In this document: positions 42,388 to 57,652 of the stretch, in pieces
How the letters are laid out: every line of letters begins with the position of its first letter
Numbering within the stretch: position 1 is the first letter of the stretch
Source of the DNA: Kordiimonas pumila
Lineage (GTDB): Bacteria > Pseudomonadota > Alphaproteobacteria > Sphingomonadales > Kordiimonadaceae
Assembly (NCBI RefSeq): GCF_015240255.1
Contig: NZ_CP061205.1
Coordinates: 496,001-560,000, forward strand
Direction of reading: 5' to 3'
Length of the DNA: 64,000 nt
Program-made: the position numbers and the translations under genes
Notes under the pieces: model-generated
Told to the model about the DNA's origin: nothing
Database searches by the model: none
The model's input: only the letters and a program-made list of their open reading frames with translations

Positions 42388-43299
42388 TTAAAACCCACAG
42401 ACACCAAGTTTGCTACAAAGCTCATCAAGCTCATCAAGCGATGCGTAACTGATAGAAACACTGCCAGCTTCGCCTTCATGATGTATTGAAACCTTCATAC
42501 CAACAGCAGCAGATAGGTCCTTTTCAAGGGCCAGAGTATCAGCGTCTTTCATCTTCTTGCCGCTAGCGGTACCACCGGGGCGAGGCTGCCGCTTTTGTTT
42601 GTCCTTGCCTTCTGAAACAAGCGCCTCTGTTTGGCGAACACTTAGACCTTCGCTAGCAATTCTCGTAGCGATACCAAGAGCATCGTCATGGCCAATAATT
42701 GCGCGTGCATGTCCCATTGATATTTTACCCATATCAACCATCGCCTGCACTTTTTCCGGTAAGGTTAAAAGACGCAGCAAGTTTGTAATATGACTTCGGC
42801 TTTTGCCAACAATCTCGGAAACAGCTTCCTGTGTGTGCTTAAACTCTTCAATCAACCGCTTGTAACCCCGGGCTTCTTCCGTTGCTGTCAGGTCAAGGCG
42901 CTGAATGTTTTCAATAATAGCAAGCTCAAGAACTTCACCGTCGGTTAGTTCGCGTACAACAACAGGTACTTCGTGAACACCCGCCCTTTGCGCCGCGCGC
43001 CACCGACGTTCACCGGCAACAATTTGAAACTTTTCAGGGCCAATTTCACGCACCAATATAGGCTGTAAAAGGCCGCGTTCTTTAATGGAAGATGCAAGCT
43101 CATCAAGCGCTGTTTCATCAAAGTGCACACGGGGCTGGTGCATATTACGTTCCAGAAACTCGATCGGGAGCCGGCGTCTGCCGCTAGAGGCACCATTGTC
43201 GCCTGTTATATCTGTAACAGAAACAACCGCAGACGGTCTGTCATCTGCGAGTAACGCAGATAATCCGCGCCCTAACCCTTTTCGTGCATTTTTAACCAT
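42388..43299 (-). CDS. parB: Chromosome partitioning protein ParB
   Basis: CTPase-type DNA-binding protein that loads on parS and moves the origin with ParA and SMC. 303 residues. KGLGRGLSALLAD opening, LVREIGPEKFQIVAGERRWRAAQRAG near residue 80, and a helix-turn-helix with EIVGKSRSHITNLLRLL near residue 155. The C-terminal dimer domain follows. 35 bases after parA on the same strand. Confidence 0.96.
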   Translation of the reverse strand: MVKNARKGLGRGLSALLADDRPSAVVSVTDITGDNGASSGRRRLPIEFLERNMHQPRVHFDETALDELASSIKERGLLQPILVREIGPEKFQIVAGERRWRAAQRAGVHEVPVVVRELTDGEVLELAIIENIQRLDLTATEEARGYKRLIEEFKHTQEAVSEIVGKSRSHITNLLRLLTLPEKVQAMVDMGKISMGHARAIIGHDDALGIATRIASEGLSVRQTEALVSEGKDKQKRQPRPGGTASGKKMKDADTLALEKDLSAAVGMKVSIHHEGEAGSVSISYASLDELDELCSKLGVCGF

Positions 43300-43333: not shown

Positions 43334-44134
43334 TTATGCTGCTATTTTGCTTTTGCGACGGCCCAGCAACTCACGGGCAAGCGATATATAGGCCTGGCTG
43401 CCAGCACACTTATGGTCATACAGAAGCACAGGCTTACCAAAGCTAGGCGCTTCCGACACCCTGACATTTCGTGGAATTACCGTTTTATAAACCTTGTCGC
43501 CTAAATAGGCACGGACATCAAGCGCCACCTGCTCAGACAGATTATTGCGGGCATCATACATGGTTAAAACCACACCGTTAATATCAAGCCCCGGATTTAG
43601 ACTTGCCTGTACTTGCTCTACTGTGCGCATTAGCAAACTCAGCCCTTCAAGGGCAAAAAACTCGCACTGTAATGGCACCAGAACAGAATCTGCCGCTACA
43701 AGCGCGTTGATAGTCAAAAGAGAAAGTGACGGCGGGCAATCAATCAGAATATAATCAAAATCAGCTCGAATATCTGCTTTGTCAAAAGCCTGCTGTAACC
43801 GAAAGTTACGCTGCGGCAGTTCAGCCAGTTCAAGGTCTGCCCCAGACAAATCTACCGTAGACGGAATGATTGAAAGACCGGGAATCTCAGTTGCTAAAAC
43901 AGCCTCTTTTACAGGGGCAGCCCCCAGCACAACATCATAGGAGGTAATTTCGCGGGCATTTCTATCAATACCAAAACCCGTACTGGCATTGCCTTGGGGG
44001 TCAAGATCAAGGATAAGGACCTTTTTTTTCACTGCTGCCATCGCAGTCGCAAGATTTATCGCTGTTGTCGTTTTACCGACTCCACCCTTCTGGTTGGCCA
44101 CTGCAATAATATGTGCCCCAGTATCTGGCTGCAT
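43334..44134 (-). CDS. parA: Chromosome partitioning ATPase ParA
   Basis: Walker-type ATPase that pulls the ParB-parS complex. 266 residues. ANQKGGVGKTTTAINLATA near residue 12 is the deviant Walker A; DYILIDCPPSLSLLTINAL near residue 120 follows. Part of the mnmG-rsmG-parA-parB unit, close to the predicted origin. Confidence 0.97.
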   Translation of the reverse strand: MQPDTGAHIIAVANQKGGVGKTTTAINLATAMAAVKKKVLILDLDPQGNASTGFGIDRNAREITSYDVVLGAAPVKEAVLATEIPGLSIIPSTVDLSGADLELAELPQRNFRLQQAFDKADIRADFDYILIDCPPSLSLLTINALVAADSVLVPLQCEFFALEGLSLLMRTVEQVQASLNPGLDINGVVLTMYDARNNLSEQVALDVRAYLGDKVYKTVIPRNVRVSEAPSFGKPVLLYDHKCAGSQAYISLARELLGRRKSKIAA

Positions 44135-44180: not shown

Positions 44181-44813
44181 TTACAAACTTTCTATGCCGT
44201 GCAGCCTTAAGATTACACCACTTGGGTCAGAGAGGCTGCTATAGCGATCAACCTGCATCTTCCAACAAGCCTTTGCTTCGGTCAATTCCTCATCTGCCCC
44301 AGCCCCCTTTAAAAGCCAGATTTCTGCTTTTCCTCCAGACGCTTCAAGAAATGGTTTCGACCAATTTATCAGCTGTATGACCCGCGCACACGCCCTCGAT
44401 GTAATAATATCAACCGGAAAAACACCTATAGATTCAATGCGCTCGTTGTGTATTTCAGCCAAAGCTGCTGTATCACGCACCACTTGGCGCATAAAAATAC
44501 ACTTTCTGCCATTTGATTCCACCATGTGTGCATGTGCCACACCGGCAAGCGAAAGTACCAACCCCGGGAAACCCGCACCCGACCCAATATCGAGCAAAGA
44601 AAGCCGCTTTTCACCAAAAACTGCCTGTATATGAGGGATCATTTGGGCCGAATCGAGGAAGTGCCGGCGCCATATATCATCAAGAGTACTATTTGAAACC
44701 AGATTTTTTGCCTTTTGCCACTTAATAAGCAAATCAGCATAGGTTTGTAATTTGACAGATGTTTCACGTGAAACATTCAAGTCCTGCGCAAGTTCCTCAA
44801 GGCTGTAGGTCAT
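44181..44813 (-). CDS. rsmG: 16S rRNA (guanine-527-N7)-methyltransferase
   Basis: Methylates G527 of 16S rRNA; loss gives low-level streptomycin resistance. 210 residues. LLDIGSGAGFPGLVLSLAG near residue 73 binds SAM; RCARVIQ-type strand SRACARVIQLINW follows near residue 134. The N-terminal NVSRET codons overlap a perfect parS palindrome at 44760. 22 bases after mnmG. Confidence 0.95.
   Translation of the reverse strand: MTYSLEELAQDLNVSRETSVKLQTYADLLIKWQKAKNLVSNSTLDDIWRRHFLDSAQMIPHIQAVFGEKRLSLLDIGSGAGFPGLVLSLAGVAHAHMVESNGRKCIFMRQVVRDTAALAEIHNERIESIGVFPVDIITSRACARVIQLINWSKPFLEASGGKAEIWLLKGAGADEELTEAKACWKMQVDRYSSLSDPSGVILRLHGIESL
44760..44775. other. parS site 1 (inside rsmG)
   Basis: TGTTTCACGTGAAACA, a perfect 16-bp match to the conserved ParB-binding site, lies in the 5' part of rsmG. 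Confidence 0.93.
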
Positions 44814-46840: not shown

Positions 46841-46856
46841 TGTTTCACGTGAAACA
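46841..46856. other. parS site 2 (mnmG-mnmE gap)
   Basis: TGTTTCACGTGAAACA, a perfect 16-bp palindrome in the non-coding gap, free of coding constraint. Confidence 0.94.
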
Positions 46857-46874: not shown

Positions 46875-48230
46875 TTATTTGCCAATACAGAAATCAGAAA
46901 ATACCACATCAAGCATATCTTCCACACCCACACGGCCCGTTATTTTCCCAAGAGCACGCGCCGCCATTCTTACATCTTCTGCCGCAAGTACAGCGTCTAT
47001 ACCAGCATTATCTGTGAAGCGAGCAAGGTGCTCTACCGTTTCCTCAAGTGCGCGGCGATGGCGAATGCGGGTTAGGGATGGTAGTTCGCGTGGTGCCATA
47101 GCACCCATTACATAGTGCTGAATTGTATCAAATAAATCCGTCATGCCCTCGCCAGATTTTGCCGACACAGTAACATGACCAGCAATGCCAGAAAGCGCTT
47201 CAGAATGTTCCACGTGAAACATTTTTGCACGGTCAACCTGCGTAATTAACAAAATGGCCTTTTCATCAAGCCACCGTTTGGCTGCCTCTGGAATGTCAGG
47301 CCATTCATCAGCGCGGACCAGTACAAGCTTCAAATCAGCATCTGCGGCTTTTGCTTCAGCACGGCGGATACCCTCTTTTTCAATATCACTCACACCGTCT
47401 CTTAAACCTGCGGTATCTATAAGGCGAACCGGATAGCCACCAAGATCTAATGACACTTCAATCACATCACGCGTTGTACCCGCTTCTTCAGAAACAATAG
47501 CAACATCGGACCGGGCAAGCGCATTTAAAAGGGTTGATTTACCCGCATTAGGCTGGCCCAAAATTACAATTCTAAACCCGTCTCTAAGGGCTTCCCCTCG
47601 TCTGTTATCTACAAGATATTGTGTTATATTGTCTTTTAATACCAATATTTGGGGTAAAACTGCCCCTGAAACACCTTCTGGCAAGTCTTCATCAGGAAAG
47701 TCTATGTCGGCTTCTAAGTGTGCAAGGTGGCCAATCAACCGCGCTCGCCACCCTTCGTATAAATCTTTTAATGCCCCATCAAGTTGCTGTAGGGCCTGCT
47801 CTCTTTGGGCCGCCGTTTGGGCATGAATTAAATCGTTCAGGCCCTCTGCCTCTGTCAGATCAAGCTTGCCATTTTCAAAGGCACGCCTTGAAAACTCCCC
47901 CGGTTCCGCAGGCCGCAAGCCAGCCACAGTGCTAAGGGCACCAAAAACACCCGCAAGGACAGCGCGGCCACCGTGCACATGCAGCTCAACAACATCCTCC
48001 CCCGTGAAGCTCATTGGCGCCTTAAAGCCAAGCACAAGAGCATTGTCCAGCCGTGCACCGGTTACAGGGTCTTTTAATTCCCTTAAGGTTGCCATGCGAG
48101 CCTTAGGCTCAGCCATACCGTCGAGTGCATGCAACGCTTTAAACGCCTGATCACCCGACAAGCGGATAACAGCAACACCAGCCATGCCAGCACCGCTTGA
48201 AAGTGCATAAATTGTTTCTGTTTCAGTCAA
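46875..48230 (-). CDS. mnmE: tRNA modification GTPase MnmE (TrmE)
   Basis: G-protein partner of MnmG. About 451 residues from a TTG at 48230, the first start that fits the family N-terminus (TETETIYALSSGAGMAGVAVIRLSG). G domain: GQPNAGKSTLLNAL near residue 225 and DTAGLRDGVSDIEKEGI near residue 270. C-terminal FCIGK carries the essential cysteine. The longer frame to 48311 has no homology. A parS-like site lies within. Confidence 0.95.
   Translation of the reverse strand: MTETETIYALSSGAGMAGVAVIRLSGDQAFKALHALDGMAEPKARMATLRELKDPVTGARLDNALVLGFKAPMSFTGEDVVELHVHGGRAVLAGVFGALSTVAGLRPAEPGEFSRRAFENGKLDLTEAEGLNDLIHAQTAAQREQALQQLDGALKDLYEGWRARLIGHLAHLEADIDFPDEDLPEGVSGAVLPQILVLKDNITQYLVDNRRGEALRDGFRIVILGQPNAGKSTLLNALARSDVAIVSEEAGTTRDVIEVSLDLGGYPVRLIDTAGLRDGVSDIEKEGIRRAEAKAADADLKLVLVRADEWPDIPEAAKRWLDEKAILLITQVDRAKMFHVEHSEALSGIAGHVTVSAKSGEGMTDLFDTIQHYVMGAMAPRELPSLTRIRHRRALEETVEHLARFTDNAGIDAVLAAEDVRMAARALGKITGRVGVEDMLDVVFSDFCIGK
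47206..47221. other. parS-like site 3 (inside mnmE)
   Basis: TGTTCCACGTGAAACA, one mismatch from the 16-bp consensus, inside the mnmE G-domain codons, 350 bases from site 2. Confidence 0.75.
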
Positions 48231-52601: not shown

Positions 52602-53633
52602 TTATCTGTTGAAGTTTTTAATGGTTTCAGAGAGAAGCGCCACATTTTCAGGTGGTGTTTCTGGCACAAAACCATGTCCAAGGTTGAAAATATGGCTACC
52701 TGCTTTTAAGCCCTCTAGGATACGCAAGGCTTCTTTTACCATAGCATCCCCGCCGGACACTACGAGATGCGGGTCTAGGTTACCCTGTACGCAGGCGAGC
52801 GGCTGAATTTCCCGTGCAGCATAGCCAAGCGGTACGCCAGTATCGAGCGACACACCATTAACGTCGGTTTCCTCTGTGTAGCGTTTAAGCATGGCACCAG
52901 CAAGGCGCGGAAAACCGATGATCGGTGTTTCACTATGCTTTGCGCGCACTTTTTCCACGATTGCTTTTGTTGGTTCAATGACCCATTTTTCAAACATGGT
53001 TTCAGGAAGTGCCGCTGACCAGCTGTCAAAAATTTGTACAACATCAGCGCCCGCTTCAATTTGCTTACATAAATACTCTGCTGTTGCATCCACAAGCATA
53101 TCCAGAATTTTACCAAAAAGCTCTGGGTTACCGTAGCCCATTTGCCGGGCTGCAGCATGGTCTTTACTGCCTGCACCTTCAATCATGTATGTAGCAACTG
53201 TCCACGGCGCACCGGCAAACCCTAAAAGAGTTACATTTTCAGGTAGCGCTTTTCTTAATCTGGAGACAGTTTCATAGACATTTCCAACGCGCTGATGAAA
53301 GCCATTCAACGAAAGCTTGTTGAAGCTATCAAGCGTTTTAACAGCGTCAAGCTTGGGGCCATGCCCTGCTTCAAACCAAACCTTTTGGCCCAGCCCATCA
53401 GGTACCACCAGAATATCAGCAAATAAAATGGCACCATCCATCCCGTACCGACGAATAGGCTGAAGGGTTACTTCTGTTGCCTTATCCGGATTATAGCAAA
53501 AATCCATAAAGGAAGGTGCTGTTTTCCGTATCTCACGGTATTCGGGTAAATACCGCCCTGCCTGGCGCATAAACCAAAACGGGACTTTATTACCGGGGTT
53601 ACCTTTGAGAGTCTCTAAAAGGGGTTTTACCAT
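52602..53633 (-). CDS. hemE: Uroporphyrinogen decarboxylase
   Basis: Converts uroporphyrinogen III to coproporphyrinogen III. 343 residues. PFWFMRQAGRYLPEYREIR near residue 19 carries the substrate arginines, LFADILVVPDGLGQKVWFE near residue 70 the catalytic aspartate, and AVKTLDSF nearby. Adjacent to the predicted oriC, the known neighbour of the origin in Caulobacter. Divergent from PPSR. Confidence 0.98.
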   Translation of the reverse strand: MVKPLLETLKGNPGNKVPFWFMRQAGRYLPEYREIRKTAPSFMDFCYNPDKATEVTLQPIRRYGMDGAILFADILVVPDGLGQKVWFEAGHGPKLDAVKTLDSFNKLSLNGFHQRVGNVYETVSRLRKALPENVTLLGFAGAPWTVATYMIEGAGSKDHAAARQMGYGNPELFGKILDMLVDATAEYLCKQIEAGADVVQIFDSWSAALPETMFEKWVIEPTKAIVEKVRAKHSETPIIGFPRLAGAMLKRYTEETDVNGVSLDTGVPLGYAAREIQPLACVQGNLDPHLVVSGGDAMVKEALRILEGLKAGSHIFNLGHGFVPETPPENVALLSETIKNFNR

Positions 53634-53755
53634 AAGACTATGCTACCTGATCATTACACGAGCAGATACCTATAAAGCGAAAGACTACTTAAATAAATAA
53701 TATATATAGAATCTTGTAGTAGTAGTTATATCCTGTGAAAACTGGGGATAAGAAG

Positions 53756-53764
53756 TTATCCACA
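53756..53764 (+). other. DnaA box (perfect TTATCCACA)
   Basis: Consensus box within the predicted oriC, next to a minus-strand TTATCCCCA box ending at 53751. Confidence 0.75.
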
Positions 53765-54023
53765 GATCTATGCACACATAGGGCTTTTAAGGTTGCATGA
53801 TAAAATTTATGTTAATAAAACAATATATTACATAATAATGACTATAGGTTTCAAGGCTTTCTAATTGTGGGGATAACGTGGAAAACTTGTGTTTCAAGCA
53901 TTTTTCTTTGTTAGTTATACTTTGTTTTTCTGCCTTGGGATAAAACTGATATAGTTGGTAACAGATTCTTTCCAAATTGGGGGTAAGTGGCGTAGTGTCA
54001 TCGTCAACATCCTTATCACCAAG

Positions 54024-54032
54024 TTATCCACA
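54024..54032 (+). other. DnaA box (perfect TTATCCACA)
   Basis: Second consensus box, 11 bases before the chosen PPSR start, at the right edge of the predicted oriC. Confidence 0.75.
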
Positions 54033-54042
54033 GGCTATTCCT

Positions 54043-54966
54043 ATGAGTCTTCCACCGAACGAAAACACACCGTCTGCTGCTGGTTTTTTAAAGCCAGATG
54101 AAACAGAATTTCATTTGCATCTGGTCTCAGATTCAACCGGCGAAACTTTAGAGGCAATAATTTCTGCTGCCCTTGTACAGTTTGAAGGGGTAAATGTTCA
54201 TAAGCATTACTGGCCGCTTGTTCGGTCTGCCCTGCAAATGAACCGGCTAATGGATGATATTAAAGAACAGCCGGGCCTTGTTCTTTATACCCTTGTAAAC
54301 AGGGAAATTAGAAAAGCACTGGAGGAGGCCTGTCAGGCTTCTAATATGCCGGTTCTATCTATTCTGGACCCGGTTATTAATTTACTCGGGTCTTACTTTG
54401 GGCAAAAAGCCATGCATAAACCCGGTCGTCAGCATACAATGAACACGCGGTATTTTCAGCGTATTGATGCCCTGCATTTTACAATGGCCCATGATGATGG
54501 TCAGATGGTTGAAGATGCACAGCAGGCAGATATTGTGCTTATTGGTGTATCGCGCTCTTCAAAAACCCCAACCAGCATTTATTTGGCGAATAAAGGGTAT
54601 AAAACCTTGAATGTTCCCTTTGTACCGGGCTGTCCCATGCCAAAAGAGCTGGATTCCCTTAAAAACAAGTTTGTGATTGGCCTTACCACAAGTGTTGAGC
54701 GGTTGGCTGCTATTAGAACCAACAGGCTGCGCTCGATCAACGAATCTGAAGAAGGTGATTATACTGACCGCGACCGAATAGATACTGAAATTAGGGAATG
54801 CAGGCGGTATTGCAGCAAGCGTGGCTGGCCAGTTATTGATGTAACCCGCCGTTCGATTGAAGAAACGGCAGCCGCTATTATCAATAAATATTCTCAGTGG
54901 CTTGAACAGTTACCTGAGGGCACCACAAAAGTTGAAGTGCTTGCTAAAGCGGAATCACTGGAATGA
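54043..54966 (+). CDS. Pyruvate, phosphate/water dikinase regulatory protein (PPSR, DUF299)
   Basis: Bifunctional kinase/pyrophosphorylase that controls PPDK or PEP synthase by threonine phosphorylation. 307 residues from ATG 54043. DSTGETLEAIISAALVQF near residue 28 and GVSRSSKTPTSIYLANKGYKTLNVPFVPG near residue 165 are the family core, the latter a P-loop-like ADP site. A longer TTG start (53977) would invade oriC. Overlaps maf by four bases. Confidence 0.92.
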   Translation: MSLPPNENTPSAAGFLKPDETEFHLHLVSDSTGETLEAIISAALVQFEGVNVHKHYWPLVRSALQMNRLMDDIKEQPGLVLYTLVNREIRKALEEACQASNMPVLSILDPVINLLGSYFGQKAMHKPGRQHTMNTRYFQRIDALHFTMAHDDGQMVEDAQQADIVLIGVSRSSKTPTSIYLANKGYKTLNVPFVPGCPMPKELDSLKNKFVIGLTTSVERLAAIRTNRLRSINESEEGDYTDRDRIDTEIRECRRYCSKRGWPVIDVTRRSIEETAAAIINKYSQWLEQLPEGTTKVEVLAKAESLE

Positions 54967-55559
54967 CAGAACTTATATTGGCATCTGGCAGCATTACGCG
55001 GGCAAAAATGTTGCGTTCAGCGGGTGTAGATTTTACCGTTATAAAACCGATGGCAGATGAAGAAGGCTTGAAAGAAACGTTGCTGGCGGAAGGCTTGCCA
55101 CCTCGCGATATGGCAGATGCTCTTGCTGAGGTAAAAGCCAGGTCGGTTTCTATGCTAAAGCCTGACGCTTTTGTTTTGGGCGCGGATCAAATTCTGGAGC
55201 TAAGTGGTCAGGTTTTTTCAAAAGCAACTACTTTAGCAGAGGCAAAAAAAACATTATCTGCCCTTTCCGGGCATACGCACCAGCTTATATCCGCGGCTGT
55301 TGTATATCAGAACGGGCAGGCAATTTGGCGATCGATTGATAGTGTAAAAATGCATATGCGCCCCATAAGCGAAGATTTTATTGATATGTATCTCGGTAAA
55401 ATGGCAGATGATGCCTTATGGAGTGTTGGTTGTTATCAAATTGAGGGCTTGGGGTCTCAGCTTTTTACCCGTATTGAAGGCAGCCATTTCACGGTACTTG
55501 GGTTACCATTGTTACCGCTTCTTGATTTTCTACGCAGGCACGGGATACTGGCTATATGA
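54963..55559 (+). CDS. maf: Maf family nucleotide pyrophosphatase
   Basis: 198-residue Maf/HAM1-fold enzyme that hydrolyses non-canonical nucleoside triphosphates. ILASGSITRAKMLRSAGVDF near residue 4, where the usual SPRR is SITR; GADQILEL near residue 73 supplies acidic residues. Second gene of PPSR-maf-aroE-coaE-dnaQ, all coupled by overlaps. It ends with a stop within the aroE start. Confidence 0.93.
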   Translation: MTELILASGSITRAKMLRSAGVDFTVIKPMADEEGLKETLLAEGLPPRDMADALAEVKARSVSMLKPDAFVLGADQILELSGQVFSKATTLAEAKKTLSALSGHTHQLISAAVVYQNGQAIWRSIDSVKMHMRPISEDFIDMYLGKMADDALWSVGCYQIEGLGSQLFTRIEGSHFTVLGLPLLPLLDFLRRHGILAI

Positions 55560-56392
55560 TGATAAAACAGGAAAAAGCCGCTGTTATCGGGCACCCTATT
55601 TCACAGTCTCTTTCCCCCCTCATTCACAATCACTGGATGGAACAGAAAGGCATTGATGGCTGTTATGAAGCCCATGATGTACCCGTTGGTGGGTTAGAGG
55701 CTTTCATCGAAAAAGCAAAGGCTGCAGGCTTATCGGGCTTTAATGTTACAGTACCCCATAAAACAGATATTTTACCGTTTATGGACAAGGTAGCGCCGCT
55801 TGCGCGCCAAATGGGGGCGGTTAATACTGTTCGAATAGAGGCAGACGGCACGCTAACCGGCTTTAATACGGATGGTATCGGCCTTATTACCCATTTGCGC
55901 AATACAGTGCCCGGCTGGCCGCGTGATTTACCAGCGCTTATTCTAGGCGCGGGCGGTGCAGCGAGGGCGGCGGTTCTGGGGCTTCTGAATGAAAGTTTAC
56001 CGGTTTTGATGATCACAAACAGAACTCGCGAGAAAGCAGAAATAATCGCGAAAGAAGTAGGCCGTGGCCGCTTGACAGTGGTTGACTGGGAAGACAGGCA
56101 CGGCGCGGTTGCTGCATCGGGCCTTGTTATAAATACCACAACTTTAGGCATGGTGGGCCAGCCAGAGCTTGAACTTGATCTAGCTCTCGCAACAAGAGAT
56201 ACCGTCATTTATGATATTGTCTATAAGCCCCTTGAAACAGGCCTTTTAAAGGCCGCAAGACAGCGCAGCCTAAGAACGGTTGATGGCCTTGGCATGTTGG
56301 TGCATCAAGGGGCTGCTGCCTTTAAGGTCTGGTTCGGGCATGATGTAGGCTTTGATGAAGCGTTGCGGAAAAAATTGGAGACAATGATCTAA
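55556..56392 (+). CDS. aroE: Shikimate dehydrogenase
   Basis: NADPH-dependent reduction of 3-dehydroshikimate. 278 residues. IGHPISQSLSPLIHNHWM near residue 11 and NVTVPHKTDI near residue 64 bind shikimate; the lysine is in VPHK. NTDGIG near residue 103 and GAGGAARAAVLGLL near residue 131 bind the cofactor. Overlaps maf (ATGATGA) and coaE (TAATG). Confidence 0.96.
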   Translation: MMIKQEKAAVIGHPISQSLSPLIHNHWMEQKGIDGCYEAHDVPVGGLEAFIEKAKAAGLSGFNVTVPHKTDILPFMDKVAPLARQMGAVNTVRIEADGTLTGFNTDGIGLITHLRNTVPGWPRDLPALILGAGGAARAAVLGLLNESLPVLMITNRTREKAEIIAKEVGRGRLTVVDWEDRHGAVAASGLVINTTTLGMVGQPELELDLALATRDTVIYDIVYKPLETGLLKAARQRSLRTVDGLGMLVHQGAAAFKVWFGHDVGFDEALRKKLETMI

Positions 56393-56994
56393 TGCGGGTG
56401 GTCGGGCTTACGGGGTCTATCGGTATGGGGAAAAGCGAAACGGCGCGCATGTTTATGGATGCCGGTATACCCGTGTTTGATGCTGACCAGATAGTGCGCG
56501 GCCTGCAGGAAAAAAACGGCCCGGCCTTACCTCTAATCGAGGCGGCTTTTCCTGGCAGTGTTGATAAGGGTGTACTGGATAGAGGCAAGCTGGGCAGCCT
56601 TGTTTTTGCAAACCCTGCTGCAAAGAAAAAGCTTGAGGCGATTATGCACCCCATGGTGGGGGAAGCCCGTGCCAGCTTTTTTGAAAAAGCCGCAGCATCT
56701 GGTGCGCCATTTGTGGTGCTTGATGTACCGCTTTTATTTGAAACGGGTGGGAACGCAGCTTGTGACAGGGTTATTGTTGTATCAGCACCAGCAGATGTGC
56801 AGCGCTCTCGAGTTTTGGCGCGCCCCGGCATGACAGAAGAGAAATTCGAGCATATTCTTGGTTTGCAAATGCCAGATGTAGAAAAAAAAGCACGGGCAGA
56901 TTATATTATTGATACCGGGCATGGGCTTGACCACGCTCGGGGGCAGGTTGCAGAAATCATTCAGGAAATGAAGGAAGTTTCAGAGCGTGCGTGA
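56392..56994 (+). CDS. coaE: Dephospho-CoA kinase
   Basis: Last step of CoA synthesis. 200 residues. P-loop GLTGSIGMGKSETA near residue 4, DADQIVRGLQ near residue 32, and the LDVPLLFETGG motif near residue 110. Shares a base with the aroE stop; its end overlaps dnaQ by eight bases. Confidence 0.96.
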   Translation: MRVVGLTGSIGMGKSETARMFMDAGIPVFDADQIVRGLQEKNGPALPLIEAAFPGSVDKGVLDRGKLGSLVFANPAAKKKLEAIMHPMVGEARASFFEKAAASGAPFVVLDVPLLFETGGNAACDRVIVVSAPADVQRSRVLARPGMTEEKFEHILGLQMPDVEKKARADYIIDTGHGLDHARGQVAEIIQEMKEVSERA

Positions 56995-57652
56995 ACTAAT
57001 ATTTGATACGGAAACTACAGGTTTTGACCCGTTGAGCGGTGACAGGCTGGTTGAAATCGGCCTTGTTGAAATGATTGATAAGTCGCTGACAGGTAACCAT
57101 TATCATTGTTATGTTAACCCTGAGCGCGAAATGCCTGAAAGTGCATTCCGGATTCACGGGCTTTCAACTGAGTTTCTGGCAGGCAAGCCAGTGTTTTCTG
57201 ATATTATGGACGAATTTCTCGAGTATGTGGGCACAGATGCTACCCTTGTTGCGCACAATGCCGAGTTTGATATGAAGTTTATTAACTGGGAACTGGAGAA
57301 CGCGGCAAGGCCGATTATTCACCCAAAACGCTTTATCGATACGCTTGCTATTGCACGCACCAAATTCCCCGGTGCCGCCAACAGTCTTGATGCGCTTTGT
57401 AAACGGTTTGGGATTAATAATTCACACCGCACCTTGCACGGCGCCCTTATGGATGCTGAAATCCTGTCTGAAGTTTATATAGAACTACAAGGTGGCAGGC
57501 AGGGCGGCATGGACCTTTCTATTGCAACATCAACACTGGTTTCAGTAGAGAAAAAGGTGCGGGAGCGCCGGCAATTTCCAGTTAGCGATGAAGAACTGGC
57601 CGCCCACGCCGACTTTATAAAGAAGCTGGATAACCCTATCTGGAACAGCTGA
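56987..57652 (+). CDS. dnaQ: DNA polymerase III epsilon subunit (proofreading exonuclease)
   Basis: 3'-5' exonuclease of the replicative polymerase. 221 residues from GTG. Exo I IFDTETTGFDPLSGDRLVEIG near residue 5, Exo II LVAHNAEFDMKFINWEL near residue 86, and Exo III HRTLHGALMDAEIL near residue 146. Last gene of the coupled unit rightwards from oriC. Confidence 0.96.
   Translation: MRELIFDTETTGFDPLSGDRLVEIGLVEMIDKSLTGNHYHCYVNPEREMPESAFRIHGLSTEFLAGKPVFSDIMDEFLEYVGTDATLVAHNAEFDMKFINWELENAARPIIHPKRFIDTLAIARTKFPGAANSLDALCKRFGINNSHRTLHGALMDAEILSEVYIELQGGRQGGMDLSIATSTLVSVEKKVRERRQFPVSDEELAAHADFIKKLDNPIWNS

Follow-up and report, generated by a model that had tools for sequence, protein, structure and literature searches.

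Where does replication of the Kordiimonas pumila chromosome begin, and how would the duplex be opened there? The question is raised by a gene-free gap between hemE and PPSR in the window, by which we mean the whole stretch of 64,000 nucleotides that was analysed (positions 496001-560000 of a single contig of 4041658 bp). Coordinates below are those of the window unless they are given as contig positions. The gap and its borders are as follows.

53634..54042, no strand: putative oriC, a gene-free AT-rich gap of 409 bp and 67% AT, with a GC-skew sign change
52602..53633, minus strand: hemE, uroporphyrinogen decarboxylase, left border of the gap (open reading frame; PF01208, E 1e-114)
54043..54966, plus strand: PPSR (kinase/pyrophosphorylase), right border of the gap (PF03618, E 5e-95)

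The two genes are divergent about the gap, with the first codon of hemE ending at 53633 on the minus strand. The initial annotation had described about 400 gene-free, AT-rich bases between divergent genes, which agrees with the 409 bp and the AT fraction of 0.67 that we measured. Only 0.16% of the 400-bp windows in the 64 kb match the gap in AT-richness. We set the right border at the PPSR ATG (54043); the uninterrupted PPSR frame reaches back as far as a TTG at 53977, however, and a start there could shorten the gap.

The surroundings of the gap were then characterized. On its right side, the Pfam assignments bore out the Caulobacter-like gene order up to dnaQ that had been noted earlier, namely hemE-PPSR-maf-aroE-coaE-dnaQ. 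On its left side, parA and parB were located 9.5-11.2 kb from the gap and three parS sites 6.4-8.9 kb from it, while the four other sites in the genome carry two mismatches. Consensus words were used for parS and, below, for KOPS, IHF, and GANTC.

54963..55559, plus strand: maf (PF02545)
55556..56392, plus strand: aroE (PF08501)
56392..56994, plus strand: coaE (PF01121)
56987..57652, plus strand: dnaQ-type exonuclease (PF00929)
42388..43299, minus strand: parB (ParB_N, HTH_ParB, ParB_C)
43334..44134, minus strand: parA (AAA_31; named by its position before parB)
44760..44775, no strand: parS, perfect 16-mer (genome search)
46841..46856, no strand: parS, perfect 16-mer (genome search)
47206..47221, no strand: parS, one mismatch (genome search)

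Within the gap, we identified two AT-rich patches and a set of perfect and weaker DnaA boxes.

53680..53731, no strand: AT-rich patch with a 50-bp maximum of 82% AT, putative duplex-unwinding side
53734..53742, minus strand: weak DnaA box, plus-strand word TGTGAAAAC, three mismatches to TTATCCACA (CTGTGRAT in relatives)
53743..53751, minus strand: DnaA box TTATCCCCA, one mismatch, abutting the weak box at 53734..53742 and co-oriented with it
53756..53764, plus strand: DnaA box TTATCCACA, perfect (box search)
53784..53856, no strand: second AT-rich patch, with a 50-bp maximum of 88% AT
53868..53876, minus strand: DnaA box TTATCCCCA, one mismatch (box search)
53935..53943, minus strand: weak DnaA box TTATCCCAA, two mismatches (box scoring)
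53978..53986, minus strand: weak DnaA box TTACCCCCA, two mismatches (box scoring)
54013..54021, plus strand: weak DnaA box TTATCACCA, two mismatches (box scoring)
54024..54032, plus strand: DnaA box TTATCCACA, perfect, kept in the family alignment

The two perfect boxes reported previously were thus recovered at 53756 and 54024, both on the plus strand, and the boxes at 53743 and 53868 on the minus strand account for the statement that at least two one-mismatch boxes lie in the opposite orientation. The plus-strand word TGGGGGTAA at 53978-53986 (TTACCCCCA on the minus strand) was also present in six other gaps of the 90 introduced below; two mismatches off the box consensus, it could represent a distinct type of weak DnaA site.

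Across the whole window, 18 boxes with at most one mismatch were found against 12.3 expected, a number reached in 4 of 100 shuffles, and four of the 18 fall inside the gap. Because the count in the window is only mildly raised, the clustering in the gap is the telling signal. By weighted box score, the top 400-bp stretch in the gap reached 15, compared with 7 for the runner-up in the window and 8 for the best site in 50 sampled contig stretches (671658 bases, 16.6% of the contig, the remainder being covered by pattern searches alone). Those stretches thus gave no sign of a stronger origin, nor of a box cluster comparable to that of the gap. Against the origin reading, the gap holds just two perfect boxes, and the genome-wide excess of perfect boxes is not large (50, compared with 37 for the backward-read control word).

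We analyzed the polarity of the chromosome to determine where its arms meet. The initial annotation had predicted an inflection of GC skew near 53.8 kb, and the cumulative GC skew of the window reaches its minimum at 53449, which supports the proposal, although this position lies inside hemE, 185 bp to the left of the gap. The skew was negative in all sampled stretches from 2.56 Mb (contig position 2560001) across the contig ends, where no change was seen, up to the gap, and positive in all sampled stretches from the gap to 2.42 Mb (2424995). It was near zero in three stretches between 2460001 and 2538036 (+0.005, -0.039, and +0.011), and the opposite change is thus found on the far side of the chromosome, near 2.46-2.56 Mb. 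Halving the contig would put the terminus of a bidirectional origin at 549.7 kb at 2.57 Mb.

Near the gap, the KOPS-like octamers spoke against the origin reading. Among the first 100 matches listed for each orientation, GGGNAGGG and CCCTNCCC occurred on the plus strand 7 and 36 times before 0.48 Mb, 1 and 11 times between 0.55 and 0.68 Mb, which is still the pattern of the left arm, and 61 and 21 times between 0.68 and 1.573 Mb. In these listed matches the orientation did not switch at the gap; it switched at about 0.64-0.68 Mb, some 0.1 Mb to the right. Already in the five stretches sampled from 560 to 720 kb, the GC skew is positive (+0.035 to +0.079), and for this reason the gap was kept as the origin. 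A recent inversion or the local gene content could explain the offset. At the other end of the replichores, CCCTNCCC was absent from the plus strand over 900 kb (1572639-2471557) and began abruptly and densely at 2.4716 Mb, again among the matches listed. This onset is a strong polarity signal on the terminus side, and the far octamer switch agrees with the skew.

The arrangement of the locus is conserved in relatives. We found hemE upstream of PPSR in every one of 30 loci (L060-L089, including the one studied here), in 25 of 26 further loci of the order, the remaining one being cut by a contig end, and in 35 of 40 loci of the class, which were chosen manually, mainly from the upper ranks of 99 matching genomes. 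In an alignment of 30 gaps, the best-kept block consisted of AT-rich DNA followed by TTGTAGTTGTAGT, CCTGTGAAT, TGGGGATAA, and TTATCCACA. According to PMC1914354, Cori of Caulobacter crescentus and the hemE/COG1806 origins of Rickettsia lie between hemE and the DUF299/COG1806 gene, and the gap shares with them this placement, the DnaA boxes, and an AT-rich region. Given the skew change, the box cluster, the parS neighbourhood, and the conservation, the gap at 53634-54042 is almost certainly the chromosomal oriC of this bacterium, of the known hemE type. The original proposal that replication starts between hemE and PPSR is thus supported in silico by the skew, the box cluster, and the relatives.

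The likeness to Cori does not extend to its control sites. Cori contains five CtrA sites and one IHF site (PMC1914354). In the gap studied here, by contrast, an exact TTAA-N7-TTAA was absent, consistent with the earlier remark that no clear CtrA pair is present; one copy with one mismatch starts at 53801, and the seven matches with up to two mismatches compare with 7.5 expected, so the motif is not above chance. A CtrA gene is nevertheless encoded at contig position 3225301, its product being 76% identical to a Caulobacter sequence; cell-cycle control may differ from that of Caulobacter, as the initial annotation proposed. The exact motif was found in 0 of the 30 gaps (own included), in 0 of 25 further gaps of the order, and in 4 of 35 gaps of the class sample. 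With the consensus used, no IHF site above chance was found in the gap, which again differs from Cori. The two GANTC sites noted before are both present (53709 and 53964) at chance level, with 1.4 expected, and an enrichment of GANTC in the gap was rejected. The near-identical family relatives L061 and L062 have 10 GANTC sites in an origin gap of 415 bp, compared with 0-4 in the other 28 gaps. GATC occurs twice in our gap, with 1.3 expected.

We then asked which part of the origin could be opened. Next to the pair of abutting boxes, the following elements were found.

53714..53728, plus strand: DnaA-trio-like tract TTG-TAG-TAG-TAG-TTA (from the sequence; conserved in relatives)
53729..53733, no strand: spacer TATCC between the tract and the boxes, with a C at 53732 shared by 24 of the 27 family loci that were anchored

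The tract, the spacer, and the two co-oriented boxes (53734-53742 and 53743-53751) together form the arrangement of the DnaA-trios of the basal unwinding system (BUS). As in the Bacillus subtilis BUS (DnaA boxes 6/7 and DnaA-trios), a co-oriented box pair is followed by a short spacer ending in CC and by adjoining triplets. The published rule asks for three or more N-A-N triplets no farther than 16 bp from a DnaA box (PMC8287927). TAG-TAG-TAG at 53717-53725 agrees with this rule if the weak box, which starts at 53734, is counted or if the middle A is relaxed for TTA; the better box starts at 53743, 17 nt past the last TAG and 14 nt past the last triplet of the tract. Three tandem TAG also make up the eTrio of the Thermotoga maritima oriC, which is essential for unwinding (PMC10316083). 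The two systems differ in their DnaA boxes and in DnaA residue 187, which is Asn there and Phe here. BUS predictions for classes of Proteobacteria are already in print (figure legend in PMC8287927), and individual tracts may be listed per species in the supplements of that paper. None of the papers listed by our literature searches dealt with this tract.

To quantify the tract, we scored 15 nt for T in the first and G in the third place of each triplet, leaving the middle base free (maximum 10), in 90 hemE–PPSR gaps, of which 28 were from the family, 27 from the order, and 35 from the class. The near-identical L061 and L062 are both within this count, and because the first aligned residue served as the right border, the initial PPSR codons may fall within a gap (more of them in L119). 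Expectations were taken from 40 dinucleotide shuffles per gap. A score of at least 8 was reached on this strand in 60 of the 90 gaps and on the other strand in 4 (10.4 expected), a score of at least 9 in 40 and 1 (0.8 expected), and the full score of 10 in 18 and 0 (0.03 expected). By group, a score of at least 8 was found in 25/28 family, 13/27 order, and 22/35 class gaps, and 30 of the 90 gaps had no such tract. With the boxes as the sole anchor, a score of at least 8 was obtained in 24 of 27 family loci (permuted mean 0.7, maximum 4) and in 23 of 38 other loci (permuted mean 1.6, maximum 8). A mirror-image control of the tract was also raised (7/27 in the family, 12/38 in the others), and the signal is therefore partly plain period-3 richness in T and G. 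The distance from the end of the tract to CTGTG was 2-7 nt in 47 of the 48 loci scored for both when the anchor was held within 170 bp of hemE, and in 39 of 51 when the anchor was free to use other boxes. Judging from this arrangement, the tract at 53714-53728 probably has the role of the DnaA-trios of the BUS.

The middle base of the triplets varied among relatives. In the intact T-N-G triplets of the 60 tracts it was T 91 times, A 91 times, G 57 times, and C once, compared with A 650, G 1306, T 1250, and C 872 for T-N-G words elsewhere in the same gaps. Relative to this background, A is favoured in the tract; T and G occur often and C is avoided, although in the anchored loci the scarcity of C extends along the entire strand 5' of the boxes and is not confined to the middle place. 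Three consecutive A-centred triplets in the tract register were found in 5 of the 60 tracts, including the one in this window. A middle adenine kept among relatives, which is a trait of the BUS, was thus not observed in these 60 tracts, in contrast to Bacillus subtilis. Since the published rule demands a middle A, it would miss most of these tracts in this register. In B. subtilis, DnaA Asn187 holds the middle adenine, and C can substitute while G and T work poorly (PMC10721633). B. subtilis trios tolerate A or C, whereas the class origins have T, A, or G and almost no C.

We compared the DnaA residues of the dinucleotide pocket (Asn187, Arg202, and Glu228 in B. subtilis), numbering them by alignment with structure 8btg of that species. 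This genome has Phe at position 187. Among 90 DnaAs of the class (own included) the residue there is Tyr in 65, Phe in 14, Val in 4, Leu in 3, His in 2, and Asn in 2, so that an aromatic Tyr or Phe occupies it in 79 of 90. Position 202 is Lys in all 90 (Arg202 in B. subtilis), and position 228 is Glu in all 90, as is Glu228 of B. subtilis. In 27 DnaAs from other classes of the phylum, position 187 was never aromatic and carried Thr in 10, Ala in 10, Gln in 6, and Asn in 1; these 27 come from a set of 30 loci from which three belonging to this class had been left out. Upstream of dnaA in those other classes, which are not known origins, a tract scoring at least 9 occurred in 0/27 forward and 2/27 reverse. 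The aromatic residue thus marks the class in these samples and is compatible with a less strict reading of the middle base.

Co-variation of residue 187 with the tract within the class was rejected. In 65 paired genomes, a score of at least 8 was found in 34 of 54 with an aromatic residue and in 6 of 11 others, and a score of at least 9 in 21 of 54 and 4 of 11, giving no association. The residue is not predictive within the class, and the match is therefore a class-level coincidence that represents one evolutionary step at most. Because Asn187 is mostly absent outside the class as well (1/27), the argument from the residue is weak. A family of the same order (L109, L113-L117) has a divergent DnaA, with domain E-values of 1.7e-48 to 3.3e-53, Val or Leu at position 187 in five of the six, and hemE gaps with one to three boxes of at most one mismatch and tract scores of 6-8.

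From these comparisons we tentatively suggest that the DnaA of this class may read triplets with a relaxed middle base, the T and G being kept and the middle base being T, A, or G. A similarly speculative formulation is that the class origins carry a recoded trio, 5'-T-D-G-3' (D = not C), in which DnaA would read the outer T and G and not the middle adenine, and the aromatic residue replacing Asn might stack on any base except C. The authors of PMC8287927 suspected that trios lacking the middle adenine might exist, and a recoded trio, if true, would be such a deviant trio.

The tract could also be a C-poor, T/G-rich strand bound by DnaA without any triplet register, in the manner of the TTGT and TTATT motifs, which E. 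coli DnaA binds as single-stranded DNA (PMC10316083 and PMC10797057). TTGT recurs in the tracts of relatives, C is nearly absent from the strand 5' of the boxes, and the raised mirror-image control points the same way. We consider this reading unlikely, since for four of the five triplets in the family loci conservation is higher in both the T and the G column than in the middle one, tracts without TTGT such as TGGTGGTGGTGG occupy the same place, and the distance between tract and boxes is short and fixed. Still less probable is that the tract is a leader or promoter element of hemE unrelated to replication. In 57 of 60 loci the tract does begin at a distance of 30-113 bp from the start of hemE, yet the short fixed spacer ties it to the DnaA-box pair and its flank is AT-rich.

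The position of dnaA raises the last alternative. In many bacteria, oriC adjoins dnaA. This is also reported for gammaproteobacteria (PMC1914354). Here, dnaA occupies bases 1-1371 of the contig, which is numbered from it, and lies about 549 kb from the hemE–PPSR gap, as expected from the initial annotation, which had placed dnaA elsewhere. That replication begins beside dnaA at contig base 1, the gap being a mere promoter region with DnaA-regulated boxes, is hardly credible despite the contig numbering and the precedent in other bacteria, because the contig ends show no skew change, the 1.5 kb upstream of dnaA hold a single one-mismatch box and nothing origin-like, and the dnaA-dnaN gap holds no DnaA box with at most one mismatch. 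Base 1 of the record is not the replication origin, and a record numbered from dnaA begins away from it. In 12 family genomes with both genes on one contig (own included), dnaA and PPSR were 141-549 kb apart, the largest separation being that of this genome, and the separation of dnaA from the origin is therefore old. The genome's other closely spaced pair of perfect boxes, at contig positions 999071-999415, was considered as a second candidate for the origin and rejected since it lies inside an open frame of 593 aa with 52% AT and has positive skew in the sampled stretches on both sides.

Taken as a whole, the reading of the gap as oriC with a trio-like tract, presumably opened by DnaA, is very probable. 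DnaA, whose gene lies some 549 kb off, would load onto the box cluster of the gap. Starting at the pair of abutting boxes of like orientation (53734-53751), a DnaA filament would then extend along a single strand of the tract (53714-53728) and unwind the AT-rich DNA on the hemE side. Two replisomes would subsequently depart in opposite directions. The origin itself was to be expected at this locus; the added point is a widespread trio-like tract that may have a relaxed middle base. Such a tract would give a sequence rule for the opening site of the origins of this class, and it offers a direct test of single-stranded DNA recognition by DnaA.
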